Below are positions 1 to 6,459 of a stretch of 6,523 nucleotides of DNA, piece after piece (position 1 is the stretch's first letter; each line of letters opens with the position of its first letter). Position numbers and translations under genes: made by a program. The notes below the pieces were generated by a model that made no database searches, was not told the origin of the DNA, and saw nothing but the letters and a program-made list of their open reading frames with translations. Source of the stretch: Anaerolineales bacterium (GTDB lineage: Bacteria; Chloroflexota; Anaerolineae; 4572-78; J111); assembly GCA_012032575.1 (NCBI GenBank), contig JAAUSP010000442.1, positions 1 through 6,523 of the forward strand. Direction: 5' to 3'.

Positions 1-279
1 CACCCGCCGCTACCACCAAACCGGCTGCGCCTGCGCCCGCCGCTGCTGCCGGGTCGGGCGGGCGACGGGGGTGGCAGCGACCGCGTCCGAATTCGTCTGG
101 GCGACATGCCGCTGGTGGTCAGCGGGGGCGAGTTTCAAGCTATCCTGGCCCTGGTCAAAAGCATTCCGGGCCGGCGTTTTAACGGTGAGGCGCGGGTCTG
201 GGAACTGCCCGATACGGTGGGTTTAGAGTCACTGGGCCAGCGTGTCGCAGCAGCGGGCTTTGTTTTGGAACAAGAATAG
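1..279 (+). CDS. Unrecognised protein, C-terminal fragment (5' end outside window)
   Basis: An open frame runs from the left edge to a TAG stop at 277-279. The last ~60 residues look like a compact domain: GDMPLVVSGGEF, then a helix-like stretch (QAILALVKSIPGRRF), then EARVWELP and a closing AAAGFVLEQE. The pattern 'sIPGRRF...g..rvWeLP' resembles small DNA-binding modules appended to helicase-like proteins (HARP-like), but that is a weak impression, not an assignment. The N-terminal ~25 residues in this frame (HPPLPPNRLRLRP...) are implausible. The frame two bases over (from position 3) gives an Ala/Pro linker (PAATTKPAAPAPAAAAGSGG), so the real protein probably switches frame near 58-66, by a sequencing error or a true frameshift. 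The gene converges on lipA across a 46-bp gap filled by a repeat. The C-terminal domain frame is fairly sure; the function is unknown. Confidence 0.6.
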   Translation, partial: HPPLPPNRLRLRPPLLPGRAGDGGGSDRVRIRLGDMPLVVSGGEFQAILALVKSIPGRRFNGEARVWELPDTVGLESLGQRVAAAGFVLEQE

Positions 280-330
280 GTTGAAGGTTAAACGTTCAAA
301 CGGTTGAACGTTTAACCTTCAACATTTAAC
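280..330. repeat. Heptad-periodic inverted repeat between convergent genes; possible bidirectional terminator
   Basis: Arms 280-299 and 304-323 are perfectly complementary (20 of 20 bp) around a 4-base loop (acgg, 300-303). The sequence also reads as successive 7-mers: gttgaag, gttaaac, gttcaaa, then after the centre variants of the same units on the complementary strand, ending with atttaac at 324-330. The element begins one base after the TAG stop of the left gene and runs into the lipA stop codon (326-328), so it occupies the whole convergent gap. A transcript from either side would form a long AT-rich hairpin. No U-tract follows on either strand, so a terminator role is inferred from position and structure only. 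The 7-nt periodicity is like the short tandem repeats (STRR type) described in cyanobacteria, and a second heptad locus occurs at 4655-4697. Confidence 0.85.
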
Positions 331-1243
331 GCGCCGGGATGGCTAAGGCCTGGGCCTGGCCTTCGGCGTGGTAGCTGCTGCGTACCAGCGGCCCGCTCTC
401 CACCCAGCGAAAGCCCAACGCCATGCCCACGTCGTGGAATTCCTGGAATTCGCTGGGGTGAACATAGCGATAAATTGGTAAATGCAGGGGTGAAGGGCGC
501 AAATATTGGCCAATGGTCAAAATATCAACCCCATGCTCCCGCAAATCGCGCAAAACCGCCAGTACTTCCTCTTTGGTTTCACCCAAGCCCACCATAATCC
601 CCGTTTTTGTGGTTGTGCCCGGGTCCAGCACTTTGGCGTTCGAGAGCACCTTGAGCGTTTGTTGATAGTTAGCCTGCGGGCGCACCGTCCGGTAAAGCCG
701 GGGCACGGTTTCGGTGTTGTGATTCAATATTTCGGGGCGGGCGTCCATCACCTCTTGCAGCGCTGCCAGGTTGCCCTTAAAATCAGGAATCAGCACTTCA
801 ATGGTGCAGTGGGGCAGCCGCTGGCGAATCCCGCGGATGGTGTTGGCAAAAATATGCGCGCCGCCGTTGGGCAGTTCATCGCGGTTGACCGAAGTGAGTA
901 CACAATGGCTCAAATTCATGGCCAGCACACTTTCGGCAACCCGGCGCGGCTCATCCTCGTCGAGCGCCTGGGGGCGGCCTGTTTTAATATGGCAAAAGCC
1001 GCAGGAGCGAGTGCAGGTATCACCCATCAATAAAAATGTAGCCGTGCCCCGGTTCCAGCACTCGCCAATATTAGGGCACATGGCTTCTTCGCACACCGTG
1101 TGCAGCCCCTGTTCGCGCATCAAATTTTTGAGGTGGCTGTAATTATTGCCGGCCGGCAGCCGGACTTTAAGCCACTCCGGTTTGCGTTGGGGCAGTTCCT
1201 TTTGCAAGCCGATGCTGTTGGGATCAATTAAATTTCTAATCAT
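326..1243 (-). CDS. lipA: Lipoyl synthase (radical SAM)
   Basis: LipA inserts two sulfur atoms at C6 and C8 of octanoyl groups bound to lipoyl domains (pyruvate and 2-oxoglutarate dehydrogenase E2, GcvH) in the cytoplasm. The 305-residue length is normal. The auxiliary-cluster motif CX4CX5C is at C51, C56 and C62. The radical-SAM motif CX3CX2C is at C77, C81 and C84. The C-terminal RSSYHA motif at 288-293 carries the serine that ligates the auxiliary cluster. Also present are [14 protein letters not shown] (commonly RDDLPDGG), [16 protein letters not shown] and [14 protein letters not shown]. The ATG start fits the family N-terminus. Its own Shine-Dalgarno is poor (agga only two bases upstream), which suggests translation tied to lipB, whose stop lies 42 nt upstream on the same strand. 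The stop codon sits inside the flanking repeat. Assignment is secure. Confidence 0.97.
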
Positions 1244-1285: not shown

Positions 1286-2041
1286 TTATGCCGGTACTGC
1301 GGCTGAATTAAAAAATAAATTTGCTGGAATGGTCTCGACAAGCACCGGTTCCATTTCAAAAACTTCACAAAAGGATTGTATCACAGGCTCCAGGACAGAA
1401 CCAATTTCAATCGGCTTCTTCAACGCTTCCGTAAGCGAAGTCACCCGGCAGCCGTTCAGCCCACGCGGCACAATCAAATCGAAAAAGCTGAGATCGGGGT
1501 TGATATTGATAAAAAAGCCGTGACTGGTAACGTTATTCTGGTCAAGCTTGATCCCGATGGCGGCAATCTGGGCAATATTGCTGTCGGGGGGCAGCCATTC
1601 GGAACTGTGGGGGATGGTGTTGTCAATGTAGACCCACACGCCCGGCTGACCGCGCTGGCGAAATGCCCGCACTCCCAAAGTAGCCAGCGCCCGAATAATA
1701 ACGCTCTCCAGCATTTTGAGGTAGCGGTGATAATCCAGTCCTTGCTCTTTGAGATTGAGGATGGGATAGCAAACCAACTGGCCCGGCCCATGATAAGCGA
1801 CCGGTCCTCCCCGACTCACCCGATGATAAGCCACCTTGAGCCGGGCGAGTTCTTCCTGATTCACCAGCAAATGCTCCCGATGACCTTCATTTCCTATGGT
1901 GTAGGTATGGGGATGTTCCATTAACAAAAGGGTGTTGGGGATTTGTTGAGCGGCTTTTTGAGCGGCTAAATCTTTCTGCAAGCTTAGCGCTGCTTCATAT
2001 TCTACCTGACCAAACCACTGCGGATGACAAATATTGAGCAT
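1286..2041 (-). CDS. lipB: LipB-family octanoyltransferase with both catalytic residues apparently replaced
   Basis: LipB normally moves octanoate from octanoyl-ACP to lipoyl-domain lysines through a Cys thioester intermediate, with a Lys partner (Cys176/Lys142 in the Mycobacterium tuberculosis enzyme). Family features seen: LMEHPHTYTIG at 40-50, RGGPVAYHGPGQLVCYPI from 77, PGVWV at 133-137, IAAIGIK at 159-165, VTSHGFFININPDLSFFDLIVP from 171, and VTSL at 200-203. Odd points: the usual K before I-A-A-I-G is Gln158 (codon cag, 1568-1570). The usual P-C-G catalytic Cys is Arg193 (P-R-G, codon cgt, 1463-1465). A Cys lies five residues on (C198). About 20 residues separate GVWV from IAAIG, where most homologues have only a few, partly explaining the 251-residue length (commonly ~210-240). 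The ATG start has a strong aaggagg five bases upstream. Family membership is secure; activity is doubtful. Confidence 0.9.
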   Translation of the reverse strand: MLNICHPQWFGQVEYEAALSLQKDLAAQKAAQQIPNTLLLMEHPHTYTIGNEGHREHLLVNQEELARLKVAYHRVSRGGPVAYHGPGQLVCYPILNLKEQGLDYHRYLKMLESVIIRALATLGVRAFRQRGQPGVWVYIDNTIPHSSEWLPPDSNIAQIAAIGIKLDQNNVTSHGFFININPDLSFFDLIVPRGLNGCRVTSLTEALKKPIEIGSVLEPVIQSFCEVFEMEPVLVETIPANLFFNSAAVPA

Positions 2042-2332: not shown

Positions 2333-3043
2333 TCATACAATTTCCAATTCGACCAGCGCTTCTTCCAACTGCCAGATTACCTCGTCAACAAAAGGCAGAG
2401 GTCTTTCCAGCTTGTCGAGGGCCGTATCCAGAGCCGCCATCAGGGCCGGCTGGCTCTGTTGAGCCGCTCTAACCCGGGCCAGGCGCAGCCGGCGAATCGC
2501 TTCGTTGATGCGGGGCGTTTGATAGAGCTGATCCAACGCGCTGGTGACAAGCCGGCCCAATTCCTCAGGCAGCGGCTCAGCCGGAGCCGGTTGAGGCCCC
2601 GAATGCATCCGCCTGGCTACGGGTGTACTTTCCGTCCAACCCAAGCCATAACTGGCCTGCATCGTTTCGAAACTGCCGTTAAAATAGATGTAAAGGTGCT
2701 GGTTCCACAATACGGCATTGGCCGCATCGTAAACTTCATCGGGGTTCAGGCTGTGGGCGATCAATTTACCATGCAGCGGCTCGAACTCTTCATCTTCCGC
2801 TGGTGAAATGATAAAGGCCAGCCACTCGTTGGGGAAGATACGGGCGATATCTTCGATCAACGGCAGGCGCTCCACTTCGGTCATGGTGTTGTAAGGACAG
2901 CCGCAGTTGCAATCGCCGCCGCATTGGCCCGGCGTTTTGCAGCCGGTGCGTTTGGTAAAAGGCTCAGTGTACCAGTTTTCCGGTTCCTGGGTTCGGCCCG
3001 GCAGAACCGGCGCGAGGTCTAGCAGTTCAATTTTTGCCAACAA
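2333..3043 (-). CDS. Unrecognised protein with five-cysteine cluster
   Basis: The frame is 236 residues. A TAA lies directly before the TTG at 3043-3041, so translation must begin at this TTG or the next one; aggaaa at 3050-3055 is well placed. Residues 35-49 hold five cysteines, C35-X5-C41-X3-C45-X-C47-X-C49, a spacing that could bind zinc or an iron-sulfur cluster. Residues ~71-120 (PNEWLAFIIS...HGKLIAHSLNPDEVYDAA) recall small 'PgeWvA...gkviAhg.d.eev...a' domains such as DUF5678, only as a resemblance. A Pro-rich stretch (~149-160) leads to a Leu/Ala/Arg-rich, probably helical tail (160-236). There is no signal peptide or membrane segment. A good promoter at 3082-3109 supports expression as a single gene. 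Function is unknown. Confidence 0.8.
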   Translation of the reverse strand: MLAKIELLDLAPVLPGRTQEPENWYTEPFTKRTGCKTPGQCGGDCNCGCPYNTMTEVERLPLIEDIARIFPNEWLAFIISPAEDEEFEPLHGKLIAHSLNPDEVYDAANAVLWNQHLYIYFNGSFETMQASYGLGWTESTPVARRMHSGPQPAPAEPLPEELGRLVTSALDQLYQTPRINEAIRRLRLARVRAAQQSQPALMAALDTALDKLERPLPFVDEVIWQLEEALVELEIV

Positions 3044-5262: not shown

Positions 5263-6459
5263 TTGAACATCACCATCCAACAAGGCGGCATCCAGGCGGT
5301 GGCCGCCGATGCGATTATTGTCAATCTGTTTCAAGGTGTGACCGCGCCCAGCGGGGCGACCGGCGCAGTGGATCAGGCCCTCGGCGGGGCCATTAGCGAG
5401 TTGATTGCGGCGGGCGATGTGCGCGGCAAGGCCGGCGAGACGGTGGTGCTCTATCCGCGCGGGGCTGTTCCGGCCCGGCGGGTGATTGTGGTCGGCCTGG
5501 GCAAGCCCGACAAGTTTGACCTGGAAGCGGTGCGCGAGGCTGCCGGAGCCGCCATCAAACAGGCCCAAAAGGTCGGCGCGGCTACGGTGGCGACAGTGGT
5601 TCACGGCGGCGGCGCGGGCGGGCTGGATTTGACCGAGGCCGCCCAGGCCGTGGTCGAGGGGAGTTTGCGGCTCTCTACCGTTACGACGCGCCCTGCGCCA
5701 AGAAAGACGACGACGAAACGGCCGGTGGACTCGCTGATTCTGGTCGAGTTTGACCCGGCCAAAATCGGCGCGGTGGAAGCCGGGGCCAAAGCGGGCCAAA
5801 TCATCGCCAAGAGCGTCGCTCTGGCCCGGACGCTGGTCAACCAGCCCAGCAATGTTGCCACCCCGACGGCGCTGGCTCAAGCGGCTGAGGCCGTGTGCGC
5901 CGAGACCGGCCTGATCTGCCGGGTGCTGGACGAGCCGGACCTGCGAGCCGAAGGTATGGGCGCACTGCTGGCCGTTACTCAGGGGTCGGACCAGCCGGCC
6001 AAATTTGTAGTTATGGAACACTGCCCCGAAAGCTGTCTGACCCAGCCGCCGGTAGTGCTGGTGGGCAAAGGCGTGGCCTTTGATACCGGCGGCTACTCGA
6101 TCAAACCGGCGGACAGCATGCTGGGCATGAAAGCAGATATGGCCGGGGCTGCCGCCGTGATCGGGGCGATGCGGGCGGTCGCTTTGCTGCAACTGCCCCT
6201 GCGGGTGATCGGCCTGACCCCGCTGGTCGAAAATATGATCAGCGCTACGGCCTACAAGCCCGCCGACGTGTTCACCGCCAAAAACGGTCTGACCATCGAG
6301 ATTGCCAACACCGACGCCGAGGGCCGGCTCATCCTGGCCGACGCGCTGTGCTACGCCGGCGAACTCAAGCCGGCGGCGGTGATTGACATCGCCACGCTGA
6401 CCGGGGCCAAAAGGGGTGGCCCTGGGGTCGCGACACCAACGCCCCTCTTCTGCGGATGA
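5263..6459 (+). CDS. pepA: M17 leucyl aminopeptidase, 3' end frame-broken and cut by window edge
   Basis: M17 enzymes are hexameric di-metal exopeptidases that remove N-terminal residues, often Leu, in the cytoplasm. The N-terminal macro-like domain occupies about 1-165, followed by the catalytic domain. Metal and catalytic residues align with E. coli PepA: GKGVAFDTGGYSIKP gives Lys269, Asp274 and Lys281; MKADMAGAAAV gives Asp292; NTDAEGRLILADAL gives Asp351, Glu353 and Arg355. VIDIATLTGA ends the reliable part at about residue 382. The frame then reads KRGGPGVATPTPLFCG and stops at 6457-6459, whereas family members continue for roughly a hundred residues. Dropping one base from the A-run at 6409-6412 restores GVALG, and further family-like pieces follow in other frames to 6523. 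The start is TTG with a good ribosome site. Identity is secure; the stop is almost certainly an artefact. Confidence 0.93.
   Translation: MNITIQQGGIQAVAADAIIVNLFQGVTAPSGATGAVDQALGGAISELIAAGDVRGKAGETVVLYPRGAVPARRVIVVGLGKPDKFDLEAVREAAGAAIKQAQKVGAATVATVVHGGGAGGLDLTEAAQAVVEGSLRLSTVTTRPAPRKTTTKRPVDSLILVEFDPAKIGAVEAGAKAGQIIAKSVALARTLVNQPSNVATPTALAQAAEAVCAETGLICRVLDEPDLRAEGMGALLAVTQGSDQPAKFVVMEHCPESCLTQPPVVLVGKGVAFDTGGYSIKPADSMLGMKADMAGAAAVIGAMRAVALLQLPLRVIGLTPLVENMISATAYKPADVFTAKNGLTIEIANTDAEGRLILADALCYAGELKPAAVIDIATLTGAKRGGPGVATPTPLFCG

Follow-up and report, generated by a model that had tools for sequence, protein, structure and literature searches.

The LipB-like protein encoded in the window (the whole 6523-bp stretch of DNA analysed here) provokes a question: what purpose does a LipB serve once both of its catalytic residues have been replaced? 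LipB is described as acting through a Cys/Lys dyad, Cys176/Lys142 in M. tuberculosis and Cys169/Lys135 in E. coli (excerpts of PMC9307952). The original prediction placed Gln and Arg at these two sites, in a gene that otherwise appeared to be in good order.

The window locus and its catalytic sites

The genes for a conserved Cys-rich protein, the lipB-like protein and LipA follow one another in this order on the minus strand, and the last two are separated by 42 nt (Table 1). The intact frame, strong ribosome site and canonical lipA neighbour noted in the original prediction were all found: the ORF begins with ATG, the strong Shine-Dalgarno sequence AAGGAGG precedes it, and the LipA protein passes TIGR00510. 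The closest relative on a long contig (JABTUK010000003.1, Anaerolineales bacterium H5_CFX5; locus L001 of genome G001) encodes a LipB that is 86% identical and has the same neighbour order.

Table 1. Features of the variant lipB locus and of the encoded protein, in window positions
Feature	Position	Strand	Detail or basis
Variant LipB gene	1286..2041	-	251 aa plus stop, ATG start
lipA, canonical lipoyl synthase, next gene downstream of variant lipB	326..1243	-	TIGR00510, 405.7 bits (cut-off 310.25)
Conserved Cys-rich protein, family unassigned, upstream of lipB	2333..3043	-	ORF
Codon 158, CAG: Gln at the catalytic Lys site	1568..1570	-	Precedes IAAIG
Codon 193, CGT: Arg at the nucleophile Cys site	1463..1465	-	P-C-G reads P-R-G
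Codon 198, TGC: Cys198, candidate replacement nucleophile	1448..1450	-	Codon read
Codon 165, AAG: Lys165	1547..1549	-	Codon read
Codon 91, TGC: Cys91, goes with Gln158	1769..1771	-	Co-occurrence across rows
Acyl-binding loop R77-G-G-P80-V-A-Y-H84-G85-P-G-Q88; canonical Asp80 is Pro	1778..1813	-	Alignment

The replacement of both catalytic residues was confirmed by the codons, which bound the stretch 1463..1570 named in the original prediction, and by a profile alignment to solved LipBs, in which Arg193 and Gln158 fall on Cys176 and Lys142 of the M. tuberculosis enzyme (1w66). The flanking residues leave little doubt about the alignment of either site: among the matches listed, P192 is present in 89/89 rows of the clade described below and G194 in 84/89, and I159 to G163 anchor the other site. 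Each of the two codons is one base from a canonical codon. Even so, the contention that one sequencing error would not suffice is upheld, because both changes recur in other rows: 11 of the 89 have Gln158 with Arg193, namely the window, P0001, P0002, P0003, P0005, P0007, P0019, P0020, P0023, P0036 and P0048. P0001, which is 99% identical to the window LipB, is listed with its own source. A pair of states common to so many rows is not an isolated error.

The window protein also carries A82, K109 and F177 where canonical LipBs have T82, R109 and A177, and it retains the RGG and HGPGQ elements of the acyl-binding loop (R77-G-G, H84-GPGQ). Its scores against family models are those of a LipB (PF21948, 138 bits; TIGR00214, 131 against a cut-off of 83.55; NF010925, 164.3 against 155), with three other LipB models matching under their cut-offs. 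The predicted model keeps the LipB fold, with the Cys-site loop less well predicted than in the canonical P0073 (block mean 64 vs. 80; residues 194-196 poor). Compared with LipB proper (EC 2.3.1.181; 2qhs, 1w66), then, the protein is a homologue as judged by sequence models and predicted fold, but one in which the Cys nucleophile, the Lys and Asp80 are replaced, so that it fails the defining catalytic pair. We infer that it is inactive as a LipB; annotation as a working lipoyl(octanoyl) transferase is unwarranted without a test, as the pair is absent. The window protein lacks the VCFDxPS and KKxxGSAQ motifs of the octanoyltransferase LipM, which belongs to the same superfamily, and matches LipB models instead. 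The lipoate-protein ligase LplA has a catalytic Lys and a small C-terminal domain (excerpts of PMC9307952), whereas the window protein has no accessory domain (251 aa, one domain matched) and has Gln158 in place of the Lys.

A clade of LipB relatives without the Lys/Cys pair

Two protein searches (best 120 of 6229 and best 120 of 6994 matches) yielded 153 different relatives. Five short rows were left out (P0070 QRC, P0076 QSC, P0077 KRC, P0085 KPC and P0141 KGR at sites 158-193-198; none combines K158 with C193), and the tree of the remaining 149 rows, the window and 148 relatives, has a split, with an SH-aLRT value of 100, between the 60 canonical rows and the other 89, among them the window. 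The clade's outer edge is that set by the best 120 matches; the scores of longer rows drop there from 336 to 279 bits. Among the matches listed, K158 with C193 is found in 60/60 canonical rows and 0/89 clade rows, so the loss of the catalytic pair is common to a clade. Within it, site 158 is Q in 41 rows, K in 34, R in 13 and I in 1, and site 193 is R in 27, C in 21, S and G in 11 each, T in 9, H in 5, P in 3, and D and A in 1 each, whereas the listed canonical rows have K and C throughout (60/60 each). The 158/193 pairs are QC (21 rows), RR (12), QR (11), KG (10), KT (9), QS (5), KS (5), KR (4), KH (3), QH (2), KP (2), and QG, QD, RP, KA and IS (one each). Parsimony reconstructs Q158, C193 and C198 as the ancestral states of the clade; one reading of C193 has an early loss followed by four regains, and repeated loss is an equal reading.

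The clade gene is rare: in a class sample of 396 genomes it occurs in five, which belong to a single family of 12. In the class search, K and C are found at every one of the 25 loci that come next. Among 37 other LipB loci from genome contigs that cover both sites (L039, in which the sites were not covered, is outside this count), 35 have both residues and two, L033 and L037, have the Lys with the Cys site gapped. These two, from Acidobacteria and Pyrinomonadaceae records, have a shorter Cys loop, AC[ED]GEPVTSM, with the Cys nearer the following helix. A literature search, which covered titles and abstract openings and had most subscription journals outside its scope, returned no report of a LipB lineage without the catalytic pair.

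Relaxation in the clade is concentrated at certain positions. Of 50 sites fixed in canonical LipB, those with the most parsimony changes are 193 (27), 82 (26), 161 and 177 (21 each), 109 (20) and 80 (15); site 158 is middling, with 11 changes, which equals the figure for site 41 and falls one short of that for site 18. Residue 82 is a pocket residue (excerpts of PMC9307952). Sites 161, 177 and 80 adjoin the catalytic motifs in sequence and would be expected to lie close to them in space. Asp80 is present in 60/60 canonical rows and 1/89 clade rows among the matches listed. At the other extreme, sites 22, 39, 79, 86, 87, 176, 192, 224 and 228 never change in the clade, the acyl-binding loop is largely retained (R77 97%, G79 100%, H84 94%, Q88 99%), and N179 is also kept. 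The clade has newly fixed sites of its own, W9, Y104, F127, Q132, P219, S223 and C225, which are far from 193 in sequence.

The suggestion that simple decay is unlikely is supported by dN/dS, which for lipB against L001 is 0.090, much as for its neighbours; these give 0.037 (lipA), 0.125 (Cys-rich protein), 0.103 (aminotransferase) and 0.087 (OsmC) in the same comparison. Against L178, the lipB value is 0.149, and other comparisons were saturated. The clade gene is free of internal stops in 5/5 class-sample genomes that carry it, and even members of the clade with as little as about 45% identity can be aligned over the greater part of their length.

Two replacement residues had been proposed, Cys198 and Lys165. 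As a candidate, Cys198 stands in part: among the matches listed it is present in 72/89 clade rows vs. 2/60 canonical rows, including 21/21 clade rows that have C193. The 17 rows without it (one of them a gap) rule it out as a clade-wide nucleophile, and it is kept no better (81%) than Cys5 (87%) and Cys225 (88%), which lie outside the canonical motifs. Lys165 shows nothing special and was rejected as a replacement base: Lys stands at this position in 88% of the clade, and it also predominates among canonical LipBs (70%).

The rows that lack both C193 and C198 likewise number 17, and 15 of them combine K158 with a Cys (13 rows) or Ser (2 rows) at position 85, which is Gly in 60/60 canonical rows. 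Eight further rows combine C198 with C/S85. The C/S85 state has a single origin, in a monophyletic subclade of 23 rows that all have K158, and a Cys at 193, 198 or 85 is found in 85/89 clade rows; C193, C198 and C/S85 are all missing from P0126 and P0041. Traced through the tree, every new Cys is already present when its predecessor disappears. C198 was lost four times, twice inside the C/S85 subclade (22.7% of branch length) and twice outside it, which makes the event count weak evidence. Cys91 occurs in 34/41 rows with Q158 vs. 3/48 others, an association confounded by shared ancestry. In a separate observation, four of the 37 genome-contig LipBs (L002, L011, L014 and L026) have a Cys at the 198 position together with both canonical residues, possibly a forerunner state.

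Genomic context and LipM-like genes

The variant lipB is directly upstream of lipA in the window and in 5/5 genomes with the clade gene. Five other members of the family of 12 have lipA and its Cys-rich upstream neighbour with no lipB between them (L182-L186), and a lipA search of the last two gave no match.

The search for LipM that had been proposed was positive: LipM-like proteins with the Cys of VCFDTP and the Lys of KKL[IV]GSAQ are encoded in 10/12 family genomes, including 4/5 with the clade gene. The label rests on the VCFDxPS Cys and the KKxxGSAQ Lys, which we take to be LipM motifs; they were found in L041 and nine more loci, and the motif Cys and Lys are fixed in 120/120 relatives among the matches listed. 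None of the NCBIfam LipM models matched L041, and the source names of its relatives, where given, are mostly lipoate ligase. G144 has a clade protein, encoded on a 4.4-kb contig, and gave no LipM-like match. In the class sample of 396 genomes, LipM-like proteins were counted in 237 (by profile at E 1e-60, a count that may include other ligase-family proteins), LipBs outside the variant clade in 134, and both in 49. The two genes tend to exclude one another (odds ratio 0.23), yet their co-occurrence (49/134, itself a profile count) is less rare than the "very rare" of the excerpts of PMC10332631. The nine LipBs read from such double genomes (G095, G108, G123, G176, G182, G299, G308, G333 and G340) all keep K and C. 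The presence of LipM is therefore insufficient as a full explanation: it does not by itself free LipB and is permissive at most.

Nor was a lipoyl-protein partner found that sets the clade genomes apart. GcvH is encoded in 5/5 genomes with the clade gene and in 5/7 family genomes without it, and PF00364, whose matches do not tell biotin from lipoyl domains, is matched in 12/12.

Possible roles of the variant LipB

The variant LipB has probably taken on a function other than that of LipB. The explanation we put first, tentatively and at just under an even chance, is that it is a pseudo-octanoyltransferase, a LipB fold without Cys/Lys acyl-transfer chemistry that is kept as a binding partner. 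Octanoyl transfer from ACP, the first step, would most likely be carried out by the LipM-like enzyme encoded elsewhere in the genome. The variant LipB, with its fold and most of the acyl loop retained, would be kept for binding: it would probably dock either octanoyl-ACP or a lipoyl domain (GcvH or E2, in the apo or the octanoylated form), and might present this ligand to LipA or LipM. Its possible place between LipM and LipA is like that of LipL, the GcvH-to-E2 octanoyl amidotransferase of Bacillus (excerpts of PMC6067878 and PMC10332631), a proposed likeness of role. A LipB without the pair can bind, as the E. coli K135A/C169A protein still binds C8-CoA (excerpts of PMC9307952). The trypanosome AdoMetDC prozyme (excerpts of PMC6221367) offers a parallel as an inactive relative kept as a partner, though the protein is unrelated and the partner here is hypothetical. 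A pseudo-octanoyltransferase is the plainest fit to the absence of the pair from every row seen, the relaxation around it, the kept fold, purifying selection, lipA linkage and the LipM-like gene; clade-wide loss of catalytic residues, a retained (predicted) fold and purifying selection are the marks of a pseudoenzyme. Several results count against it. Drift needs no Cys, yet nearly every row has one at 193, 198 or 85; four regains of C193, should that reading hold, would be odd for a dead site, though C193 may instead have been lost repeatedly; site 158 varies no more than moderately; and G144 has the protein with no LipM-like match. The role, whatever it is, is dispensable, since five sister genomes have no lipB at the same place.

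The main rival holds that the enzyme has been rewired, its nucleophile having moved from Cys193 to Cys198 (the state of the window) and then, within a single subclade that has Lys158, to Cys/Ser85. Such an enzyme may be an octanoyl amidotransferase acting from GcvH to E2 domains, as LipL does, or an octanoyltransferase. We regard rewiring as possible, if doubtful. The basal Q158, C193 and C198, the presence of C198 in every C193 row, the C/S85 with K158 in most rows without either, the single origin of that state and the retention of R77, G79, H84, Q88 and N179 all favour it, as does the existence of LipM organisms without LipL, for which broader LipM specificity or unknown amidotransferases have been offered (excerpts of PMC10332631). 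That same single origin is but one event, however; the losses of C198 fall evenly inside and outside the subclade; P0126 and P0041 have no candidate nucleophile among the three; the conservation of Cys5 and Cys225 indicates that Cys retention is not special to the loop; Cys198 need not be new, given the four K+C LipBs that already carry it; and residues 194-196 are poorly predicted. Its fullest form, in which the acyl-carrying Cys migrated stepwise from 193 to 198 to 85 as Lys became Gln and then Lys again, and in which the protein is an amidotransferase that, where LipL is lacking, passes LipM-made octanoyl groups on from GcvH to the remaining lipoyl domains, is unlikely. Slow decay of a LipB made redundant by LipM is improbable: five of the seven family genomes without the gene have lipA at the same locus, suggesting that lipB was lost there, and several canonical-fixed sites are relaxed, but the low dN/dS, the absence of internal stops, the alignment of distant members, the newly fixed sites and the strong ribosome site all oppose it. 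An ordinary LipB reaction through unrecognised residues agrees with the LipB equivalog scores and the lipA linkage; it is very improbable, since Asp80 has been lost along with the catalytic pair and no one substitute pair is conserved clade-wide. Least credible, to the point of being negligible, is an artefact of sequencing, assembly or alignment: the window sequence may hold errors, as its ORF at 5263-6459 leaves its relative's frame early, but the states at issue are common to many database rows and their flanks are unambiguous.

Under either a pseudo-octanoyltransferase or a moving nucleophile, the clade is a natural set of LipBs in which the catalytic pair has dissociated while the scaffold stays fixed. 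It bears on a question raised in the excerpts of PMC10332631: where LipM is present but LipL is not, how are lipoyl domains besides GcvH supplied? LipB models annotate octanoyl transfer, yet 6/6 clade proteins tested pass TIGR00214 without the pair, which makes pathway calls unsafe.

Three neighbours of the locus are also of note. A protein of the 2333-3043 type adjoins lipB-lipA or lipA in 10/10 fetched loci (L001, L178-L186), including those without lipB. It has the N-terminal motif C-x5-C-x3-C-x-C-x-CPYNTM (the L180 copy is without two of the cysteines), and a Pfam and NCBIfam search at 1e-3 matched no family; one guess is a metal or Fe-S protein associated with LipA. The leucyl aminopeptidase ORF at 5263-6459 (plus strand) departs from the frame of its 507-aa L001 counterpart after about residue 383 and ends at 398 aa, either a true change or a sequence error. 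Finally, lipA is flanked at 1-279 (plus strand) by the end of a protein that has repeated HARP-like domains and occurs also at L178:4576-5484; Pfam HARP scores 34.9 bits in L178, whereas the window fragment, at 11.6 bits, does not reach the cut-off (25).
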